DNA of 64,000 nt from a virus. A model generated the notes under the pieces. It was not told where the DNA came from and did no database searches. It worked only from the letters and a program-made list of their open reading frames with translations. This document shows, in pieces, positions 4,827 to 50,960 of this stretch; position 1 is the stretch's first letter; each line of letters begins with the position of its first letter. Position numbers and translations under genes: made by a program. The stretch is taken from the IMG/VR virus record IMGVR_UViG_3300027770_000025, positions 62,001 through 126,000 of that record. One strand, written 5' to 3'.

Positions 4827-5453
4827 TTATTCGGATATTTCGAAAAACTTATCCTGGATAACCTCCACCTTATTCTTAAGGTTTTTCAGTCTGGAGATCT
4901 CTGATGGATTACCCGATGTATCTATGATTTTCCCGATATGATCGAGTAGCAGATAGCATAAACTTGCTAATTGTGATGTGAATTTACCATGCTCAGTGTA
5001 GTATGGAGCGTATGTGTCTTTGTTCTTTAGGTCTATTAAGTCAACTAAAAAATCTTCTAGATAAGATACAGTTTTTTCTGGGTTTCCTATAAAGATCTCT
5101 TCTCCAGTATCTTCATCCTCTTCAACTGATGCTTTTAAGATTTGATCCATTTCTGATATCATTCTTTCTAGCTCTGATTTGGCATCTATCATATTCCTTG
5201 ACATTTTTAATGCCTCCTCTTTATTGATCTTTGTGAGTGCGTCATAGGGAACAGATACGACTGAAGCCGGCCCGTTTATTAACTGAACCTTTGCCATACC
5301 ATTAGACAATGATAAGAATTTTGCTGGGCCTCTATATGATGTTACCCAATCGCCTTCCACGATATTAGGATCTGAATCGTCATGAAATTCAGATTCCGGA
5401 TCCTCCATAAATTTATCAAGATCGAAATCTTCGAAAAGTTTTACGTGCTTCAA
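4827..5453 (-). CDS. CTS-tagged protein with SH3/KOW-like segment
   Basis: 208 aa. Starts MKHVKLFEDF, a textbook copy of the shared N-terminal tag, with LFE as a candidate cleavage triplet. Residues about 32-76 (VEGDWVTSYRGPAKFLSL, VVSVPYDAL) look like a small SH3-type barrel; the rest is predicted helical. Function unknown. Two bases separate it from the next tagged gene, so the two are co-transcribed. Confidence 0.7.
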   Translation of the reverse strand: MKHVKLFEDFDLDKFMEDPESEFHDDSDPNIVEGDWVTSYRGPAKFLSLSNGMAKVQLINGPASVVSVPYDALTKINKEEALKMSRNMIDAKSELERMISEMDQILKASVEEDEDTGEEIFIGNPEKTVSYLEDFLVDLIDLKNKDTYAPYYTEHGKFTSQLASLCYLLLDHIGKIIDTSGNPSEISRLKNLKNKVEVIQDKFFEISE

Positions 5454-14019: not shown

Positions 14020-14092
14020 TTTAATAAAATTATAAATAAACTTTTCTGGAGTAATACAGGTTAAGAATCTAAAACCTGTTAACAGTCGCTGT

Positions 14093-14110
14093 ACCGCTGT
14101 CAACGTTCCT
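14093..14110 (-). repeat. palindromic element
   Basis: Reverse copy ACCGCTGTCAACGTTCCT; first of five in a gene-poor stretch. Confidence 0.7.
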
Positions 14111-14178
14111 TAGACTTTTTCCAGATGCTTCCAGATGCTTCCAGATTGTTCCAGGATAATAATCCGGATACATGCGCT

Positions 14179-14196
14179 GGAACGTTGACAGCGGTT
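14179..14196 (+). repeat. palindromic element
   Basis: GGAACGTTGACAGCGGTT; faces the copy at 14093. Confidence 0.7.
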
Positions 14197-14280
14197 TAAA
14201 TACGGAAAAGAATCTGAAAACAGTAGGTGGTTTCCCAGAGAATTCCTGGATTTTTCCAAGCATCTATGGATTTATGGAGT

Positions 14281-14298
14281 GGGAACGTTGACGACGGA
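14281..14298 (+). repeat. palindromic element
   Basis: GGGAACGTTGACGACGGA. Confidence 0.65.
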
Positions 14299-14373
14299 TA
14301 TAGACATGGTACAAATTCAAAAAACCCCTGAGGATTTTCCCTGTTTTTCCGCGGATACACAGGCTATAGATTG

Positions 14374-14389
14374 TGGTCGACGTTCCCGC
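14374..14389 (-). repeat. palindromic element, partial
   Basis: GGTCGACGTTCCCGC, reverse orientation, shortened. Confidence 0.5.
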
Positions 14390-14520
14390 TCATTTCTATC
14401 AGGATCTTTCGTGGTTTAATATAGGATGTTCATGTGGTTTAACGTATGGGTTTCTGATGTATCCATGAAATATCCAGATGTTTTCAGATGTATCCAGGGT
14501 GTATTCAGATGTTTTCAGTC

Positions 14521-14542
14521 GCGGGAACGTTGACGACGGTTT
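14521..14542 (+). repeat. palindromic element
   Basis: GCGGGAACGTTGACGACGGT, then a CAACAGACAG tandem. Confidence 0.7.
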
Positions 14543-14575
14543 AAGCAACAGACAGCAACAGACAGCAACAGTAGT

Positions 14576-14719
14576 TTATTGCTTGTTCTTTCTAATGATG
14601 GGGGTGATTATTCGGTCTAGTATTTCGAAAGATACTATCACCATTCCTAATATAGCTGCTGCTATCATGCTTATAAAGCCCACTGCTAACACCAAAGGTA
14701 ATCTTATTAGTCTTTTCAT
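14576..14719 (-). CDS. small membrane protein (47 aa)
   Basis: MKRLIRLPLV then one helix (AVGFISMIAAAILGMVIV). Lies inside the 3' half of the lipoprotein frame below in another frame; the arrangement ATATGA suggests the lipoprotein once ended at this start codon. Confidence 0.5.
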   Translation of the reverse strand: MKRLIRLPLVLAVGFISMIAAAILGMVIVSFEILDRIITPIIRKNKQ

Positions 14720-14885: not shown

Positions 14886-14934
14886 ATATGTATTTATCAG
14901 ATTTATTAAAACTCCTAAAACCCTCCGCGTGCGG

Positions 14935-14958
14935 GAGTATGTTAGCACCATACTATGT
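14935..14958. repeat. inverted repeat AGTATG-N7-CATACT
   Basis: AGTATGTTAGCACCATACT followed by ATGTG; copy 1. Confidence 0.6.
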
Positions 14959-14995
14959 GCAGGAAGTTATGCATTTTTCCACGCATCTTCGGGAC

Positions 14996-15013
14996 GGGAA
15001 CGTTGACAACGGT
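14996..15013 (+). repeat. palindromic element
   Basis: In a 90-bp module with inverted repeat 14935, repeated at 20703. Confidence 0.7.
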
Positions 15014-15048
15014 CTTCGGATTCGTACTAGATAAAAACTCGGGACAAC

Positions 15049-15076
15049 AAAAAAGCAGACCGAAGTCTGCTTTTTA
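15049..15076 (-). terminator. terminator of 15101
   Basis: GCAGAC-CGAA-GTCTGC stem. Confidence 0.85.
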
Positions 15077-15100: not shown

Positions 15101-15427
15101 CTAAGAATATTCATCACACTCCCTTAAAAATTCAATATCCATTTCATCAATATCACCTATTGATATTTCATCATATTCTCTGTTTATAAATTTCTTTCCC
15201 TCTATTAAACACTCTGTTATAATCTCCACATTTAAAATAGCTCCTATTAAACTCTCAAACCCCATTCCTGAATCTAGACTTCCGTCTGATAAAGCCTTCT
15301 CTGCCAACTCTCTAATATCGGGCATAGAGTCGCCAGTAATCTTAATGGTTGGGTAAGCTCCTCTTCCGCCTCCCCATAAATTTCCTAGTAAAAATCCTTC
15401 GGCGTGATAACTAATTTTCTTTTCCAT
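15101..15427 (-). CDS. hypothetical acidic protein
   Basis: 108 aa, MEKKISYHAEGFLLGNLWGG; acidic C-terminus (DEMDIEFLRECDEYS). Own class I promoter and terminator. No family recognised. Confidence 0.6.
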   Translation of the reverse strand: MEKKISYHAEGFLLGNLWGGGRGAYPTIKITGDSMPDIRELAEKALSDGSLDSGMGFESLIGAILNVEIITECLIEGKKFINREYDEISIGDIDEMDIEFLRECDEYS

Positions 15428-16640: not shown

Positions 16641-16669
16641 TTGATTTCTTTTAAATCCCTCGCGAGCGT

Positions 16670-16693
16670 GAGTATGTTAGTGACATACTATGT
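16670..16693. repeat. inverted repeat AGTATG-N7-CATACT
   Basis: Loop TTAGTGA; upstream of the frameshifted gene. Confidence 0.6.
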
Positions 16694-18055: not shown

Positions 18056-18244
18056 CTACCCTCGTCGTTTGATTATTAGTTTTACCTCAGCAACTAATTC
18101 TTTTGATTCTGTCTTAACCGTTAACGGATTCGCTCCGGGACGATGTGTCTTAAAGAATTTAACAATTGCGGGTACGTTTAGCATACCGCCATTAATTAAT
18201 TCTATAATTTCTGCTCTAATTTCTGTGGTTGTCATTGCGTTCAT
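18056..18244 (-). CDS. small basic helical protein
   Basis: 62 aa from MNAMTTTEIRAEI. The upstream ATG at 18265 sits inside the -7 element of class I promoter 18262-18299, so it cannot be used; 18235 is an alternative start. Basic C-terminus (VKLIIKRRG) suggests nucleic-acid contact, but no family is recognised. Confidence 0.55.
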   Translation of the reverse strand: MNAMTTTEIRAEIIELINGGMLNVPAIVKFFKTHRPGANPLTVKTESKELVAEVKLIIKRRG

Positions 18245-18261
18245 ATTTGTCTTATTAATAC

Positions 18262-18299
18262 TCAAATATAAGATAATAAATCGGAGTAAAAAAATAAAT
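18262..18299 (-). promoter_or_regulatory. class I promoter
   Basis: Drives 18244; its -7 box covers the false start at 18265. Confidence 0.75.
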
Positions 18300-18345
18300 A
18301 CAGATTATTACTGCATGGTGTTTTCTGATGTAGCAGATAGTTCGA

Positions 18346-18363
18346 AACGTTGTCAACGTTCCT
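18346..18363 (-). repeat. palindromic element
   Basis: AACGTTGTCAACGTT is a perfect dyad; opens the left 43-bp repeat. Confidence 0.7.
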
Positions 18364-18392
18364 GCGCCGCAACCTTGTTTGTCTTATGGGAA
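18350..18392 (+). repeat. 43-bp direct repeat, left
   Basis: Identical to 18735-18777; flanks CTS gene 18427. Starts with the palindrome half TGTCAACGTTCC. Confidence 0.9.
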
Positions 18393-18394
18393 TT

Positions 18395-18403
18395 GATATA
18401 TAG
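18395..18403 (+). promoter_or_regulatory. class II box GATATATAG
   Basis: 23 nt before ATG 18427, inside the inserted cassette. Confidence 0.65.
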
Positions 18404-18426
18404 ATTAATAAAAAATAAAAAAACTA

Positions 18427-18729
18427 ATGAAAAATTTTAATTCTTTCGAAGATTTCAGTAACCAAAAAATAAACGAGGCAGCGGGCGTAGCTCCTTTTTA
18501 TGATAGCGTAAGCCAAATGAATGCTATATTAGCAAGTGATGATATTGCGGGTAAAATGGAAATGATGTTCATTGACAGTATGACCTATGCAGAGGATCTC
18601 ACATGGATTCTTAAAAGTAAAGATCGTCCCAGATTTATTTTAAAGGTAACTTTAATAGCTGAGGGCGGAGGATATGGTGCTAAAAAATATACTGTAGGTA
18701 AAGTAGTAAAAACTATTGCAACACCTTAA
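18427..18729 (+). CDS. CTS-tagged protein in an inserted cassette
   Basis: 100 aa, on the opposite strand to its neighbours. Tag MKNFNSFEDF, then KINEAAG as probable cleavage site. Has a GATATATAG box at 18395-18403. The gene lies between two identical 43-bp direct repeats (18350-18392 and 18735-18777) that each start in the palindromic element. Function unknown. Confidence 0.65.
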   Translation: MKNFNSFEDFSNQKINEAAGVAPFYDSVSQMNAILASDDIAGKMEMMFIDSMTYAEDLTWILKSKDRPRFILKVTLIAEGGGYGAKKYTVGKVVKTIATP

Positions 18730-18734
18730 TTGTA

Positions 18735-18749
18735 TTGTCAACGTTCCTG
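18735..18749 (-). repeat. palindromic element, right copy
   Basis: Opens the right 43-bp repeat; outer half lost at the insertion edge. Confidence 0.65.
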
Positions 18750-18777
18750 CGCCGCAACCTTGTTTGTCTTATGGGAA
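18735..18777 (+). repeat. 43-bp direct repeat, right
   Basis: Partner of 18350-18392; 385 bp from copy to copy. Confidence 0.9.
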
Positions 18778-18789
18778 ACCTTGGAGCAC

Positions 18790-18816
18790 AAAAAAAGAGA
18801 CCGAAGTCCCTTTCTC
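18790..18816 (-). terminator. terminator of 18857
   Basis: AGAGA-loop-TCTCT variant with T-run. Confidence 0.65.
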
Positions 18817-18856
18817 TGTGGGTAACCAAACCCATATCAAACACACATGATAATTT

Positions 18857-19054
18857 TTAATCCTCTATTTCGAATTGGTCTTCTTCGGGAATAACGGAAA
18901 GGGTTCTTCCACTATCCCATTTAACAATGATCTGACCTATTCCGTCTACTTTAACTACTGTACCCATAGCTCCCGGTTCGATTGGTTCAATATCATCCAT
19001 AAGAATCATTTTAATTCTTTTTCCTTCGATGTTTTTGCTGGTCAGGTGTTTCAT
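18857..19054 (-). CDS. DUF4314-like small protein
   Basis: 65 aa. The core GKRIKMILMDD, EPGAMGTVVKVD, IIVKWDSGRTLSVIPEED follows the DUF4314 pattern (small SH3-like fold in phages and plasmids). Role unknown. Class I promoter 19079-19116. Confidence 0.7.
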   Translation of the reverse strand: MKHLTSKNIEGKRIKMILMDDIEPIEPGAMGTVVKVDGIGQIIVKWDSGRTLSVIPEEDQFEIED

Positions 19055-19121: not shown

Positions 19122-19517
19122 TTATTCCCAATCATCATCTTCCTCTTCCTCTTCTGCGTAGAAGAAACCCTGAGCTTCGCAGGACTCCGGGTTCGGTAAG
19201 CTATTATACTGAGCTACCACATCGTCCTCTAACTCATGAACAAACTTCGGATAGATTACTCCGGGAGTGTTGTCCCCGCCTGGATTGTTCCTGAATACTA
19301 AATCAATTCCTGCACCTCGGTCTTCAGGTAAACCATTTAGCTCGCATAGGAGATCATAAAAATCCTTTCCACCAAACTCTCCGTAACCTTCATAATCAGG
19401 TTCGGTAAATACCCGTCCGTCCGGTGCAATCATATGCACTGTGAATGTTGGACGAGTTGAACAGTTGTTTGCGATTGACTCATCAGTATCGCACGTTTTC
19501 CAGCTAAAGAATCCCAT
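19122..19517 (-). CDS. conserved phage/bacterial hypothetical (MGFFSWKT family)
   Basis: 131 aa. MGFFSWKTCDTDESI and the VHMIAPDGRVF strand are typical of a family widely scattered in phages and bacteria with unknown function. Highly acidic C-terminus. Confidence 0.7.
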   Translation of the reverse strand: MGFFSWKTCDTDESIANNCSTRPTFTVHMIAPDGRVFTEPDYEGYGEFGGKDFYDLLCELNGLPEDRGAGIDLVFRNNPGGDNTPGVIYPKFVHELEDDVVAQYNSLPNPESCEAQGFFYAEEEEEDDDWE

Positions 19518-19581: not shown

Positions 19582-19652
19582 AACTGAAAAAATACTCCGC
19601 CGGAGAAAGTAATAAAAACAGATGCTTCTGCTGGAGAAAACAGTATGCAGCC

Positions 19653-19673
19653 GCGGGAACGTTGACAGCGTTC
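19653..19673 (+). repeat. palindromic element
   Basis: GAACGTTGACAGCGTTC perfect; about 60 bp of flank is shared with 20206. Confidence 0.75.
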
Positions 19674-19706
19674 TTCGGATTCGCAGCTGTGGAAAACCTA
19701 CGGCAA

Positions 19707-19735
19707 CAAAAAAGGCAGACCTAAGCCTGCCTTTC
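19707..19735 (-). terminator. terminator of 19753
   Basis: AGGCAG-loop-CTGCCT stem. Confidence 0.85.
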
Positions 19736-20679: not shown

Positions 20680-20702
20680 TACTAAATACCCTTCGCGGGC
20701 GT

Positions 20703-20726
20703 GAGTATCTTAGCACCATACTATGT
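20703..20726. repeat. inverted repeat AGTATG-N7-CATACT
   Basis: AGTATC variant; same 90-bp module as 14935. Confidence 0.6.
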
Positions 20727-20761: not shown

Positions 20762-20783
20762 GCGGGAACGTTGACAGCGTTCT
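20762..20783 (+). repeat. palindromic element
   Basis: Left flank of CTS cassette 20832. Confidence 0.75.
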
Positions 20784-20810
20784 TCGGATGCTGCTTGGAT
20801 TAAAAATTAG
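20762..20810 (+). repeat. 49-bp direct repeat, left
   Basis: Three mismatches to 21498-21546; includes the palindrome and CTTGGATTAAAA. Confidence 0.85.
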
Positions 20811-20831
20811 ATGTGGTGAGAAAAATAAATA

Positions 20832-21458
20832 TTATAAATTATTAATGATATCAATAAATATCTTTTTGGTCTCTTCTTTACCTATCTTTTCTTCTATGGA
20901 TTTGATAAAATTTATTACAATAGTCTGTTTGTAAATTTCCTGTTCGTAATCCTCCCATCTCTTAGCCTTTCCATCAGGTTTAGTATCCATAAACACCGTA
21001 GGTGCTTTTCCTGTGCATTTAGTTACAAGAGTCTCAACTTCTTTAATAATCCTGTCTACTTCAGTTTTATTTGTAATCACTATCTTTATATTAGGTAACT
21101 CTGATTGAAATTTATCATAGTCAAAATTTTTAGGAACTCTTACAGATACATGAGTAACACCGCCGCCTCTTCCGGTAAAATCTTTAGAGCCAATTCTAAT
21201 TCTAAGAACATTTTCTGAATCAATAGAAGATAAGTTCTTATTATCCTTTTCTCTATCGTATCTAAAATTATAAAAATCACTAGGATTAGTTATTATAAGT
21301 TTATCAAACGAACTTTCATTATCAGATGATATACTTGGATCGTCTTCTTTTACTTTAACATACCCATCAATAGTTGAATTAACATTAAATTTTAATTCAC
21401 TATATGGTAATTGGTCTTCGTTAATTTTTTCGTAGATAAAATCTTTAAATGTTTTCAT
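20832..21458 (-). CDS. CTS-tagged protein in a repeat-flanked cassette
   Basis: 208 aa. MKTFKDFIYE is the closest match here to the T4 IPIII targeting peptide (MKTYQEFIAE), with IYE at the same position as the T4 cut. The body has glycine loop GSKDFTGRGGGVTH and an RVPKNFDYDKF strand; no catalytic motif seen. Flanked by 49-bp near-identical repeats (20762-20810, 21498-21546) and preceded by GATATATAA. Confidence 0.7.
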   Translation of the reverse strand: MKTFKDFIYEKINEDQLPYSELKFNVNSTIDGYVKVKEDDPSISSDNESSFDKLIITNPSDFYNFRYDREKDNKNLSSIDSENVLRIRIGSKDFTGRGGGVTHVSVRVPKNFDYDKFQSELPNIKIVITNKTEVDRIIKEVETLVTKCTGKAPTVFMDTKPDGKAKRWEDYEQEIYKQTIVINFIKSIEEKIGKEETKKIFIDIINNL

Positions 21459-21478: not shown

Positions 21479-21487
21479 TTATATATC
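21479..21487 (-). promoter_or_regulatory. class II box GATATATAA
   Basis: 20 nt before ATG 21458, inside the repeat-flanked cassette. Confidence 0.6.
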
Positions 21488-21497
21488 TTTAGTTTGA

Positions 21498-21519
21498 GCG
21501 GGAACGTTGACAGCGTTCT
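21498..21519 (+). repeat. palindromic element
   Basis: Right flank of CTS cassette 20832. Confidence 0.75.
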
Positions 21520-21546
21520 TCGAATGCTACTTGGATTAAAACTTAG
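21498..21546 (+). repeat. 49-bp direct repeat, right
   Basis: Partner of 20762-20810 on the other side of CTS gene 20832. Confidence 0.85.
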
Positions 21547-24268: not shown

Positions 24269-24370
24269 ACCATAAATATAACAATTATATCTACGAAATA
24301 AAAATTTTACTAAGCATTTTTTTGTTAAAGTTTTTAGCCTACGCACGAGGTCCACGCTCCCGCACGTGCT

Positions 24371-24394
24371 TAGTATGTTAGCATCATACTATGT
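24371..24394. repeat. inverted repeat AGTATG-N7-CATACT
   Basis: Loop TTAGCAT. Confidence 0.6.
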
Positions 24395-27026: not shown

Positions 27027-27899
27027 ATGGATAAGATAAAAAGTTTTAAAGAGTTTACTCTTAACGAAAAAGGAAGTGCATTAGGTTTTCTAGGTGGTAT
27101 TCTAACTGGGAATATTGACATCTTCGATAAACCAGATCAATGGTCCGGTATAGGATCACCAATAACCGGCGATGGGGATCTGCCCAATTCTAACACCGTG
27201 GCATCTGGTCCAAATACCATAGGAGCATTAGCACCAGGTTCTTATACACCATCAGGAACTTATACAGCAACACCAGGTAATGATGACTTTGCTCTTTATA
27301 TGCAGCACCAACAAGGCATAGCAGGAGCAGCGGGTCTAGTTAAAGCACTTAACGGAACTGGTAATATGCATCCAGAAACAGTTAAAACTAAAAGCGGAAC
27401 TAGATACGCAAACCTAGTTAAGAACGTACCTTCTGATAGACCACAAGTTAAGAGAGATATTATAGCATCATTAGACAAAGGAGACCAAAAAACTGCAGCA
27501 GGACTATTCCTTAATATGTGGAAAGAGAAATGGTTTTCTAAGCAAAAGCAGGCTAAGACCGCTATCAACCTTCCCAAAAATGCTACGGTAAAAGATGCTA
27601 TCACTAAAGCATCTTCCAAATACAGTGTGCCCTTTGATTTTGCTATTACTGTTGCTATTATAGAATCAGGTTTAAATCCAGCTGCACACGGAGCAACATA
27701 CAAAGGTCTATATGCAATGAAACCCAGTAGCAACTACAGCGGATTGGTTACTCCTATGGGAAACAATTGGGCAGATCCCTATGTTAATGCAGAAAATGGT
27801 ATTAAGTTATTAAAAAATAACATTGCTCAATTCAAGAAAAGTTTAGGTAACGATTGGGCTTCTCTTAAAGTTGGAAGTTGGGCAAACAACTTAGCTTAA
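27027..27899 (+). CDS. CTS-tagged lytic transglycosylase-like protein
   Basis: 290 aa. Tag MDKIKSFKEF, then TLNEKG as processing site. Gly/Pro/Thr-rich linker to about residue 90. The C-terminal domain (from about residue 195) is SLT-like: ITVAIIESGLNPAAHG with Glu213 as catalytic acid, then GLYAMKPSSN and a closing helix. The fold cleaves peptidoglycan between MurNAc and GlcNAc. With the tag it fits an internal head protein that would open the wall during DNA entry, as T7 gp16 does. Lone plus-strand gene with its own GATATATAG. Confidence 0.75.
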   Translation: MDKIKSFKEFTLNEKGSALGFLGGILTGNIDIFDKPDQWSGIGSPITGDGDLPNSNTVASGPNTIGALAPGSYTPSGTYTATPGNDDFALYMQHQQGIAGAAGLVKALNGTGNMHPETVKTKSGTRYANLVKNVPSDRPQVKRDIIASLDKGDQKTAAGLFLNMWKEKWFSKQKQAKTAINLPKNATVKDAITKASSKYSVPFDFAITVAIIESGLNPAAHGATYKGLYAMKPSSNYSGLVTPMGNNWADPYVNAENGIKLLKNNIAQFKKSLGNDWASLKVGSWANNLA

Positions 27900-42202: not shown

Positions 42203-43081
42203 ATGAAGTACATTAAGCCATATCAGATATTCGAAGCCAGTGCATCAGCATCTGCACCAGCACTTACAGCGGAGCAGATAGAGTGGCTGGATAAATGTGT
42301 ACATGTAAGCTGGACTCTTAATCCACAAACAGGTCTTGTTGATGTGGATGGTGATTTCTATTGTGTAGATGAGGGTCTGACAGATTTTAAAGGGGTTAAG
42401 TTCGGGAAAGTGGGTGGGTATTTCAGTTGTGAGAAAAATGAGCTCACCTCACTGGTGGGAGCACCTAAGACCGTTAACGGTGATTTCTGGTGTCATGACA
42501 ATGAGCTCACCTCACTGGTGGGAGCACCTCAGACCGTTGGTGGGTATTTCGATTGTAGGGGCAATCAGCTCACCACACTGGTGGGAGCACCTCAGACGGT
42601 TGGTGGTTTCGATTGTGAAGGCAATCGTCTTACCTCACTTGATGGAGCACCACAAGAGGTTAAAGGGTATTTCGATTGTAGGGGCAATCAGCTCACCACA
42701 CTGGTGGGAGCACCTCAGAGCGTTGGTGGGGATTTCAATTGTGATAACAATCAGCTCACCACACTGGAGGGAGCACCTCAGACCGTTGGTGTGGATTTCT
42801 ATTGTAATGACAATGAGCTCACCACACTGGAGGGAGCACCTCAGACCGTTAAAGGGAGTTTCAATTGTGAGGGGAATCCAGTCTCTGAAAGCACTTTAAA
42901 AGCCATCTTTGCGCTAATGCGAAAAGGAATGGCTTATCAGCAGGCTCTAGAAAAACGCTGGCCGAAGATGAAAGATGTAGATAGGGTGCTAATGTATAAA
43001 CAAATGACTAATCTACCACCAGAAGAGATGAGAAAGTACAATGCGTTGGCTACCTATGCTAACATAAAGAGCTATTTATAA
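42203..43081 (+). CDS. CTS-tagged 21-residue-repeat (LRR-like) protein A
   Basis: 292 aa. Tag MKYIKPYQIFEA, then cap EQIEWLDKC...DVDGDFYC, then 8 repeats of FxCxxNxLTSLxGAPxxVGG, then a helical C-cap (QALEKRWPKMKDVDRVLMYK). One repeat is one residue short. These repeats build a solenoid, probably for protein binding. Repeats are near-identical in DNA; variation is concentrated after the F and C positions. Confidence 0.8.
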   Translation: MKYIKPYQIFEASASASAPALTAEQIEWLDKCVHVSWTLNPQTGLVDVDGDFYCVDEGLTDFKGVKFGKVGGYFSCEKNELTSLVGAPKTVNGDFWCHDNELTSLVGAPQTVGGYFDCRGNQLTTLVGAPQTVGGFDCEGNRLTSLDGAPQEVKGYFDCRGNQLTTLVGAPQSVGGDFNCDNNQLTTLEGAPQTVGVDFYCNDNELTTLEGAPQTVKGSFNCEGNPVSESTLKAIFALMRKGMAYQQALEKRWPKMKDVDRVLMYKQMTNLPPEEMRKYNALATYANIKSYL

Positions 43082-47489: not shown

Positions 47490-48548
47490 ATGAAGAATTT
47501 AAAGACCTATAGAATGTTTGAGAGTGTGATGGAGCCGACCCAGGAGCAGATCGGGTGGCTCGACAAATGTGTATATGGAAGCTGGAAGCTTAACACTTCT
47601 ACAGGGCTTGTAGATGTTGATGGGAATTTCAATTGTAACGAACAGGGTCTGACGGATCTTAAAGGTGTTAGATTCGGAGAAGTGAGCGAGGATTTCGATT
47701 GTGAAGACAATCGTCTCACCTCACTTGATGGAGCACCACAAGAGGTTAAAGGGAGTTTCAATTGTAATAGTAATCAGCTCACAAGTCTGGAGGGAGCACC
47801 TCAGGCTGTTAATGGGAGTTTCGATTGCCAGAATAATCAGCTCACAAGTCTGGTGGGAGCACCCCAGAAAGTTGGTGGGGCTTTCAGTTGTTATCGCAAT
47901 CGGCTCACCTCACTCGAGGGAGCACCTCAGACCGTTGGCGGGAGTTTCTATTGTAACGGCAATCAGCTCACAAGTCTTGAGGGAGCACCTCAGAGTGTTG
48001 ATGGTGATTTCGATTGTAGGAGCAATCAGCTCACCACCCTGGTGGGAGCAACTAAGACAGTTGGCAAGCATTTCATTTGTAGTCATAATCAGCTCACAAG
48101 TCTGGTGGGGGCACCTCAGAAAGTTGATGGGGATTTCACTTGTAAGAACAATGCTCTAACCTCACTGGTGGGAGCACCACAGACTGTTAATGAGTTTTTC
48201 AATTGTAGTGAGAATCAGCTCACAAGTCTTGAGGGAGCACCTCAGACCGTTGGTGGAAGTTTCTATTGTATAGATAATCAGCTCACAAGTCTTGAGGGAG
48301 CACCTCAGAAAGTTGGTGGTATTTTCCACTGTGAGGATAATCCAGTTACTGAGAAGACACTTAAAGAAATATTAGATTATATGGGAATGCGTAGATCCTA
48401 TCTAGATGTTGTTAAATCCCGATGGTACCTATTTCCCTTGGAGGATCAGGTGCTGTTATACAGACCTGATTTCGAGTGGATTGGAGCAGAAGAGAGAAGG
48501 AAGTTGGATGCTATGAAAACTTATACCAATATTAAAGGAATGATATAA
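47490..48548 (+). CDS. CTS-tagged 21-residue-repeat (LRR-like) protein B
   Basis: 352 aa. Tag MKNLKTYRMFESVME, cap EQIGWLDKC, 11 repeats, C-cap (SRWYLFPLEDQVLLYRPDFE). The largest family member. Tag shared with the preceding gene rather than with the other repeat proteins, so tags move independently of bodies. Confidence 0.8.
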   Translation: MKNLKTYRMFESVMEPTQEQIGWLDKCVYGSWKLNTSTGLVDVDGNFNCNEQGLTDLKGVRFGEVSEDFDCEDNRLTSLDGAPQEVKGSFNCNSNQLTSLEGAPQAVNGSFDCQNNQLTSLVGAPQKVGGAFSCYRNRLTSLEGAPQTVGGSFYCNGNQLTSLEGAPQSVDGDFDCRSNQLTTLVGATKTVGKHFICSHNQLTSLVGAPQKVDGDFTCKNNALTSLVGAPQTVNEFFNCSENQLTSLEGAPQTVGGSFYCIDNQLTSLEGAPQKVGGIFHCEDNPVTEKTLKEILDYMGMRRSYLDVVKSRWYLFPLEDQVLLYRPDFEWIGAEERRKLDAMKTYTNIKGMI

Positions 48549-49323: not shown

Positions 49324-50205
49324 ATGAAGCACGTTACCTCATACAACCTATTTGAATCAGAATCAGAACCAATCAGAAAGGTGTTCACCAGAGAGCAGCT
49401 TAGCTGGCTAGATAAATGCACAGAGAACTCCTGGAAATACAATCCATCTACAGGGCTTGTTGATGTGGATGGGGATTTCTATTGTAGCGGCCAGAATCTA
49501 CAAGATTTTAAAGGTGTCAGATTCGGGACAGTTGGAAGGGGTTTCAGTTGTAAGAATAATCAGCTCACCACACTGGAGGGAGCACCTCAGAGTGTTGGTG
49601 GGGATTTCAATTGTTATAATAATCAGCTCACCACACTGGAGGGAGCACCTCAGAGTGTTGGCAATAGTTTCAATTGTGATGACAATCAGCTCACCACACT
49701 AGTGGGAGCACCTCAGAGCGTTGGTGGGGGTTTCAGTTGTAAGAATAATCAGCTCACAAGTCTAATGGGAGCACCTCAGAGTGTTGGTGAGGATTTCGAT
49801 TGTGAGAATAATCAGCTCACGAGTCTTGAGGGAGCACCTCAGGCTGTTAATGGGCGTTTCAGTTGTAGGGATAATGAGCTCACCACACTAGTGGGAGCAC
49901 CTCAGAAAGTTAATGGGGCTTTCAGTTGTGTTGGCAATCAGCTCACGAGTCTGGTGGGAGCACCTCAAACGGTTGGTGAGATTTTCTATTGTGGTGGTAA
50001 TCCAGTCTCTGAATCAACTTTAAAAGTCATCTTTGCGCTAATTCGAAAAGGAATTGCTTATCAGCAGGCTCTAGAACAATACTGGCCGGAGATGGAAGAT
50101 GAAGATAGGGCGTTAATGTATAAACAAATGCCTAATCTACCACCAGAAGAAACAAGAAAATACAAGGCGTTGGCTAACTACAATAACATAAAGGGTTATT
50201 TATAA
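49324..50205 (+). CDS. CTS-tagged 21-residue-repeat (LRR-like) protein C
   Basis: 293 aa from MKHVTSYNLFESE; upstream in-frame ATG at 49306 precedes the promoter box. Cap EQLSWLDKC, 8 repeats, C-cap very similar to protein A (ALIRKGIAYQQALEQYWPEM). Stop and next start overlap by one base. Confidence 0.8.
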   Translation: MKHVTSYNLFESESEPIRKVFTREQLSWLDKCTENSWKYNPSTGLVDVDGDFYCSGQNLQDFKGVRFGTVGRGFSCKNNQLTTLEGAPQSVGGDFNCYNNQLTTLEGAPQSVGNSFNCDDNQLTTLVGAPQSVGGGFSCKNNQLTSLMGAPQSVGEDFDCENNQLTSLEGAPQAVNGRFSCRDNELTTLVGAPQKVNGAFSCVGNQLTSLVGAPQTVGEIFYCGGNPVSESTLKVIFALIRKGIAYQQALEQYWPEMEDEDRALMYKQMPNLPPEETRKYKALANYNNIKGYL

Positions 50206-50960
50206 TGAAGTACATTAAGCCATATCAGATATTCGAAGCCAATGCGGCAGCACCAGCAGCACTTACTGAGGAGCAGATCGAGTGGTTGGATAAATGTGCT
50301 AATCGAACATGGTCACTAAATCCACAGACTGGACTGGTTGATGTGGATTTGGATTTCAATTGTACCGGACAGGGACTTTCAGATTTTAAAGGAGTTAAGT
50401 TCGGGGTGGTTAATAGAAGTTTCTTTTGTCCCCGCAATTCCCTTACTTCCCTTATAGGAGCACCACAACGGGTTGGCGGGGATTTATATTGTAACGAAAA
50501 TGCACTCACCTCACTTGAGGGAGCACCACAACGGGTTGGAATGAGCTTAAATTGTAACAACAATTCACTCACCTCACTTATGGGAGCACCACGAGAGGTT
50601 GGCGGGAGTTTCTATTGTCACACCAATCTTCTAACCTCATTAGAGGGAGCACCCCAACGGGTTGGTGGGGATTTCACTTGTACTAACAATCTTCTCACCT
50701 CACTTGAGGGAGCACCAAAAAGTGTTTTCAGGGATTTCGGTTGTCATGGCAATCCAGTCTCAGAAAAAACATTAAAGAAGATATATGACAAAATGCAAAA
50801 GGGTACCAGTTATCTGGCTGCTGTGGAGAGTCTTTGGAGCGAGATTCCTCAGGACGATCAGGTTCTGCTTTATGCTGATGATTTCAAATGGGTAAGCCCA
50901 GAGCAGGGTAGAGGACTAGTAGCACTAAGGGCTTATCAGGCTCTAAGAGGCATGCTTTAG
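50205..50960 (+). CDS. CTS-tagged 21-residue-repeat (LRR-like) protein D
   Basis: 251 aa. Tag MKYIKPYQIFEANA as in protein A; 6 repeats, more diverged (LYCNENALTSLEGAPQRVGM). C-cap like protein B (PQDDQVLLYADDFK). Translationally coupled to protein C (TAATG). Confidence 0.8.
   Translation: MKYIKPYQIFEANAAAPAALTEEQIEWLDKCANRTWSLNPQTGLVDVDLDFNCTGQGLSDFKGVKFGVVNRSFFCPRNSLTSLIGAPQRVGGDLYCNENALTSLEGAPQRVGMSLNCNNNSLTSLMGAPREVGGSFYCHTNLLTSLEGAPQRVGGDFTCTNNLLTSLEGAPKSVFRDFGCHGNPVSEKTLKKIYDKMQKGTSYLAAVESLWSEIPQDDQVLLYADDFKWVSPEQGRGLVALRAYQALRGML

Follow-up and report, generated by a model that had tools for sequence, protein, structure and literature searches.

Probable capture of a tagged late-type gene into a palindromic early-gene spacer of a giant phage, with duplication of 43 bp

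Introduction

Promoter early stem-loop (PeSL) cassettes have been described in T4-type phages (Arbiol et al., 2010; Comeau et al., 2014; both as related in PMC4503421) and, as far as that account extends, they comprise repeated promoter/terminator spacers between small early genes of a hyperplastic region, the genes being shuffled between relatives via the spacers. The internal proteins of phage T4 are provided with a capsid targeting sequence and an (L/I)-x-E site for the prohead protease (PMC9026906). The gain of single orphan genes by large phages has mostly been inferred from its end products. In T-even phages, polymorphic cassette loci, reportedly described by Repoila and co-workers in 1994, are said to contain small genes that are present or absent and are bounded by direct repeats.

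Here, we analysed a stretch of 64,000 nucleotides (the window; bases 62001-126000 of the 348,582-bp, metagenome-derived IMG/VR virus record IMGVR_UViG_3300027770_000025) from a giant phage with promoters of Bacteroidota type. The window contains an array of small early genes that shares with the PeSL cassettes, as PMC4503421 presents them, the repeated spacers, the hyperplastic region and the shuffling between relatives. Unlike in that account, a late head-targeted gene is here inserted in the spacer, in either orientation and with partial duplication of the spacer, and the repeated core is palindromic at the DNA level, with no consistent RNA hairpin; the likeness is one of layout. The capture that we propose thus resembles T4-type cassette shuffling, short of an established identity with PeSL. 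The presence or absence of repeat-bounded small genes is also reminiscent of the T-even polymorphic loci, a likeness by description with a different phage group.

The array holds two apparent events 2 kb apart, one recent, with identical repeats, and one older, with 92% identical repeats and known foreign homologs, while uninterrupted sister spacers serve as internal empty-site controls. Together, the paired events fix the moving unit (late box and coding sequence) and the spacer as acceptor, and offer a directly testable case of how phages may renew their set of head-packaged, presumably injected proteins.

Results and Discussion

Layout of the spacer array

The small-gene array lies at 12 to 35 kb of the window, mostly on the minus strand, and its genes alternate with spacers. 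Read on the plus strand, a full spacer is composed of an early promoter (TATATTTG type, minus strand), a palindrome and the A-tract of the upstream gene's terminator. The distance from early promoter to palindrome is 65-104 nt (179 in one spacer) and that from palindrome to A-tract stays within 41-53 nt in uninterrupted spacers; terminator, palindrome and TATATTTG-type promoter occur at fixed distances in ~16 spacers. The palindrome, of the type GGGAACGTTGACAACGG, is limited to ~12.1-35 kb of the window; the rest of the 348,582-bp record has a single copy, with 1 mismatch.

On the minus strand of window 12161-34943, one half of the palindrome is nearly invariant (GTCAACGTTCCCGC) and the other is variable, and a related core is present in the 373-kb relative G001; this near-invariant half and the related core suggest that the palindrome serves for protein binding and not as an RNA structure. 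We detected no consistent folding signal for an RNA hairpin at the palindrome in the window spacers (z mostly -1.5 to +1); the neighbouring terminators do fold, by inspection. To either side of the array (24.4-31 kb and 5-10 kb), G001 and the window are collinear, the array genes in between being reordered or replaced. G001 has the same GATATATAG boxes, and about seven of its spacers carry a palindrome of its own, AACACCGTYGYCRACGGTGTT.

Another element also recurs in the spacers: AGTATGTTAGCACCATACTATGT, which has inverted repeats and lies next to a GC-rich segment, was observed at window 14918-14958, 16653-16693, 20686-20726 and 24354-24394, and also in G001 (L003 about 15280-15320). A stretch of ~500 bp (window 14076-14590) holds five copies of the palindrome, in either orientation, together with short tandem words (CCAGATGCTT) and no convincing gene; it could be a remnant of lost cassettes.

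A tagged gene between perfect direct repeats

The features of the insertion site are the following.

18263..18298, minus strand: intact early promoter of minus-strand gene 18056-18265, the left neighbour, left of the insertion
18346..18360, no strand: perfect 15-bp palindrome AACGTTGTCAACGTT, the spacer motif of the array
18350..18392, no strand: left 43-bp repeat copy, running on into the native spacer half on the promoter side
18393..18734, plus strand: insert of 342 bp (late box, coding sequence and 5 nt), delimited by the repeat junctions
18395..18402, plus strand: GATATATA late-promoter-like box of gene 18427
18427..18729, plus strand: tagged gene, 100 aa
18427..18480, plus strand: N-terminal tag MKNFNSFEDFSNQKINEA with an I-N-E site followed by A, of the T4-type (L/I)-x-E cleavage pattern
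18735..18777, no strand: right 43-bp repeat copy, running on into the native spacer half on the terminator side
18787..18817, minus strand: intrinsic-terminator-like hairpin of the right minus-strand gene, intact, right of the insertion
18857..19054, minus strand: right neighbour, DUF4314 protein
Predicted empty-site junction: GTCTTATGGGAA directly joined to ACCTTGGAGCAC, 385 bp shorter, with one 43-bp copy

The first-pass annotation had described a plus-strand tagged gene with its own class II box between identical 43-bp copies, and this description was confirmed: 18350-18392 and 18735-18777 are identical over exactly 43 bp (TTGTCAACGTTCCTGCGCCGCAACCTTGTTTGTCTTATGGGAA), the identity ending sharply on both sides, and enclose gene 18427-18729. 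Across 20 simulated 64-kb sequences (Markov-1), the maximum length of a direct repeat within 1 kb ranged from 12 to 15 bp. The left copy begins 3 nt before the palindrome centre and is joined to palindrome and promoter, without a terminator; the right copy is joined to the terminator and has the second palindrome half only, without a promoter. The terminator-side half of the right copy is GGGAAACCTTGGAGCACAAAAAAA, to be compared with GGGAAAGTTTGGAGCATAAAAAAA at spacer 22932. Between the copies, TT, the GATATATA box, a 24-nt leader, 303 bp of coding sequence and TTGTA follow one another, so that the late box starts 2 nt inside the insert and the insert ends 5 nt past the stop codon. As read from these junctions, the insert is late box and coding sequence only.

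We also scanned the two 150-nt flanks of 162 window ORFs of at least 50 aa for exact repeats. The longest was the 43 bp around 18427, an exact repeat without equal in the window except within LRR-like genes, followed by 25 bp around a second tagged gene (20832, below), which form part of a 49-bp imperfect repeat, by 23 bp around a spurious ORF that lies within an LRR-like repeat gene and by promoter/palindrome words of at most 19 bp. Both top-ranked genes are tagged, for which the chance probability is ~0.005, a rough value based on three tagged among ~36 array genes. Around late tagged genes in four flanking genome stretches (L068-L071), no flank repeats above 10 bp were found. In the spacer left of the insertion, GGTGTTTTCTGRTGTAGCAG (window 18317-18336) is common to the G001 spacers L003:12441 and L003:12823; it lies beside palindromes in both phages, but in opposite orientation to transcription.

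The tag and the late box

The tag form MKxxKxFExF...(L/I/V)xE was observed in 23 of the 25 genes with a GATATATA box versus 7 of the 22 genes with early promoters, and [LIV]xE within residues 7-28 in 18/25 late versus 6/22 early genes. Window 61253-61936 matches the PHROG 94 head maturation protease (1e-35), of ClpP-like type. We assign late and packaged status from the box, the tag and the cleavage motif alone, and by these marks the 18427 protein is apparently packaged in the virus head. The tagged genes are like those of T4 IPI, IPII and IPIII in the short N-terminal tag, the (L/I)-x-E-like site, the late box and the poorly conserved bodies that differ between relatives (PMC9026906); unlike these, ~25-30 different tagged genes occur in one window. 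No sequence similarity between the tagged proteins and T4 proteins was detected.

No relative of the 18427 protein was found in Pfam, PHROG, IMG/VR, phage records or GTDB genomes, and none was retrieved by peptide patterns in IMG/VR and GTDB, by tblastn against phage records or by a genome search of 18 related records. A match in G005 (E 0.013, 30%) was weak and was discounted, and an AlphaFold model (pLDDT 53) was left unused.

The joined site compared with uninterrupted spacers

The comparator for the 18427 site is an uninterrupted spacer.

19649..19716, no strand: uninterrupted spacer, comparator for the 18350/18735 site (by alignment)

When the flanks of 18427 are joined, they align end to end with the uninterrupted spacers 19655 and 22932, and the alignment crosses the junction (GGGAAA..TTGGAGCA.AAAAAAA). 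The similarity of the right copy plus terminator to spacer 22932 was above that of all 2000 shuffles. Spacer paralog 29836, tried as a further comparator, gave an alignment weaker than that with 19655 and similar to that with 22932. Because the joined flanks align with uninterrupted spacers and the two copies hold complementary halves of the layout, the duplicated 43 bp is, on this alignment evidence, recipient (target) spacer, and a single spacer would have been present before the insertion. The history first put forward for this locus, in which a tagged cassette entered a spacer and the spacer was duplicated, is favoured by the match of the joined site with 19655/22932 and by the complementary copies, and it is also backed by a second tagged gene with the same signature, whose homology with foreign contigs stops at the gene ends, and by the apparent absence of both repeat-flanked genes from syntenic relatives.

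A second, older event in the same array

The second case lies 2 kb from the 18427 site.

20762..20810, no strand: left 49-bp repeat copy beside the second tagged gene, 45/49 identical
20832..21458, minus strand: second tagged late gene, 208 aa, with homologs in six other contigs
21480..21487, minus strand: GATATATA box of the second tagged gene
21498..21546, no strand: right copy of the 49-bp repeat, 45/49 identical
14907..15075, no strand: uninterrupted spacer paralogous to the split 20764/21500 spacer (by alignment)

The joined flanks of 20832 give an alignment of ~146 nt with the uninterrupted 14996 spacer and, again, the left copy goes with the promoter side only and the right copy with the terminator side only. 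By their coordinates, the duplicated stretches would span -12 to +36 around the palindrome centre at 20832 and -3 to +39 at 18427, and the two genes are oppositely oriented relative to the spacer. Repeats of 100% identity at 18427 versus 92% at 20832 suggest either a recent event at the former or ongoing homogenisation by exchange.

The homologs of 20832 were found in six other IMG/VR contigs. With those in L081 and L086, it has 553/636 and 528/641 nucleotide matches (83-87% identity), and this homology spans only window 21462 to ~20822-20827, inside the repeats. Neither palindrome type occurs at the L081 and L086 loci, where flanking repeats do not exceed 10 bp; at both loci, the homolog stands directly behind its own GATATATA box and, in L086, among other tagged genes. 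Apart from one weak match in L085, no other window protein is common to the loci of the 20832 homologs. Since these homologs lie in contigs without these spacers and the homology is confined between the repeats, the mobile unit is, by this comparison, the late gene and not the spacer; for the older event, the target origin of the duplicated DNA and the minimal extent of the insert are thus seen almost directly.

The two cases bear on two other explanations. A palindromic spacer may already have been in tandem, with the tagged gene entering later between the copies and no new duplication; gene-free spacers with two palindromes do exist (15544 and 15652, at a distance of 108 bp, have an exact 25-bp stretch in common, and several copies lie in 14076-14590), but in both cases the terminator side is missing from the left copy and the promoter side from the right copy, and exact insertion between copies, twice and with no remainder, is less simple, which makes this course of events decidedly improbable. 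An assembly artefact of the contig comes to mind for a metagenome-derived IMG/VR record and is hardly credible here, given that the copies have different and functionally sensible flanks, that the gene is intact and that an independent, diverged case with 4 mismatches is found nearby.

Turnover of the array and recombination between spacers

Adjacent spacers are more alike than expected, both in the window (p=0.027) and in L003 of G001 (p=0.050), and spacers are mosaics, as 20764, which resembles 14996 on the left and 21500 on the right. Similar neighbouring spacers are also found around untagged genes (19655/20209, 94% over 68 nt; L003 12433/12815) and, since they are frequent there too, spacer duplication is not special to tagged genes. 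The array gene g19122 (19122-19517) has a homolog at L002:7796-8170 with 85% amino-acid identity, in a contig that otherwise shares no window protein, which by this distribution is a single-gene transfer. From the likeness of adjacent spacers and the presence of g19122 in an unrelated contig, it follows at the sequence level that the whole array is turned over through single-gene gain and spacer copying.

The same observations speak for homologous recombination between spacers, the alternative named in the first-pass annotation, in which the tagged gene, borne on a circle or concatemer segment beside a copy of the same spacer, would have entered by crossing over within the 43 bp; a course of this kind has been proposed for the PeSL-type shuffling of T4-type phages. 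Its end product is the same as that of insertion with duplication, spacers are mosaic and shared between genes and phages (20764; GGTGTTTTCTGRTGTAGCAG in L003 and the window), neighbours are unusually alike and single array genes do move between phages. However, the donor must already have had the gene beside this very spacer, the 43-bp sequence was in no other IMG/VR record searched and no such spacer accompanies the 20832 homologs; we regard this explanation as possible, if rather doubtful.

Relatives and a third tagged gene

G001 gave no detectable homolog of either 18427 or 20832, and G005 none that was convincing, in searches run without a positive control for the query. Likewise, G001 has a private tagged gene (L003:14839-15156) between two palindromes, for which no homolog was found in this genome by a search without a positive control. 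A third tagged gene is also located in the array.

27027..27899, plus strand: third tagged gene, transglycosylase-like C-terminus, without a flanking duplicate, at the same place in G001

Its C-terminal part matches phrog_4067 (2e-4) and the gene is conserved in G001 and G005. The GATATATA box of 27027-27899 directly adjoins the neighbour's early promoter, and a conserved spacer word, TTTTCCACGC, directly adjoins the stop codon of the gene. By this comparison, repeat-flanked tagged genes are private and the repeat-free one is old. The notion that tagged insertions always duplicate the spacer was ruled out by 27027; since it sits in the array without a duplicate, duplication is not obligatory. 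The first-pass annotation had also presented 18427 as a lone tagged gene in a minus-strand array, which stands as to its presence there, but not as to its being alone, as 20832-21458 (minus strand) and 27027-27899 (plus strand) are late tagged genes of the same array.

The empty site with one 43-bp copy that had been predicted for relatives was not encountered in them, the relatives being reshuffled at this point. The loci retrieved through the neighbours g19122 and DUF4314 were rejected as empty sites, having no microsynteny here, and strain variation among L003-L006 and L029-L032 was uninformative, as the loci are identical. An exact scan of IMG/VR records gave no match to the 43-bp sequence, a palindrome scan of IMG/VR gave only two single chance sites in unrelated contigs, and no donor of 18427 was found in the records searched.

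A discrete insert between direct repeats that start near a palindrome could also point to target-site duplication by a transposase or to integration by a site-specific recombinase acting in trans. Usual transposon duplications are far shorter than 43-49 bp. The insert encodes no such enzyme, Phage_integrase (PF00589) and Resolvase (PF00239) domains are absent from the 348-kb record by searches whose positive controls matched, the duplications differ in length (43 vs 49 bp) and in their start points relative to the palindrome, and one tagged gene has no duplicate, all of which leaves such an enzyme a very small chance. A search for endonuclease VII gave no match in any control genome.

Proposed mechanism of capture

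We consider it probable that a foreign late gene, made up of the GATATATA box and the coding sequence and little more, was inserted in a palindromic spacer of the early array, the middle 43 bp of which were duplicated in the same event. At the level of sequence, this account comprises the repeats, their target origin, the minimal insert, an older event of the same kind and the lack of a detected G001 homolog of either gene. Capture may have taken place during recombination-dependent replication or double-strand-break repair. On this view, the spacer would first be copied up to 18392 by a fork or a strand end, which would then switch to a foreign template; the tagged gene would be copied from that template, and copying would re-enter the spacer 43 bp behind the exit point, at the palindrome centre. 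The palindrome would favour such a capture, for which no transposase or integrase would be required. The template switch is a step that we purely infer, and microhomology at the switch would be demonstrable only with the donor. With the promoter side of the left neighbour and the terminator side of the right neighbour spared, the insertion would be tolerated, and it may have been kept because both neighbours retain their control elements. The 18427 product would be made late and pulled into the prohead via its N-terminal tag; cleaved behind I-N-E, it would enter the next host together with the DNA. With another case, older and more fully documented, at a distance of 2 kb, such phages seem to gain genes for injected proteins repeatedly by this route.

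A bolder and unlikely extension is that the palindromic spacers are dedicated acceptor sites, at which a palindrome-binding or nicking activity encoded by the phage, with two offset nicks ~40-50 bp apart, would admit units of late promoter and gene for injected proteins in either orientation, duplicating the spacer core. If true, this would amount to a gene-acquisition system without integrase or transposase.

Other repeats

Four tagged paralogs (window 42203-43081, 47490-48548, 49324-50205 and 50205-50960) have repeats of ~21 residues (LTSLEGAPQxVxGxFxC) and long internal DNA repeats, and likely recombine among themselves. In the array of another phage, two identical 60-bp hairpins (L009:3933-3992 and 5063-5122) carry a parS-like TTTCACGTGGAAC core in the loop.
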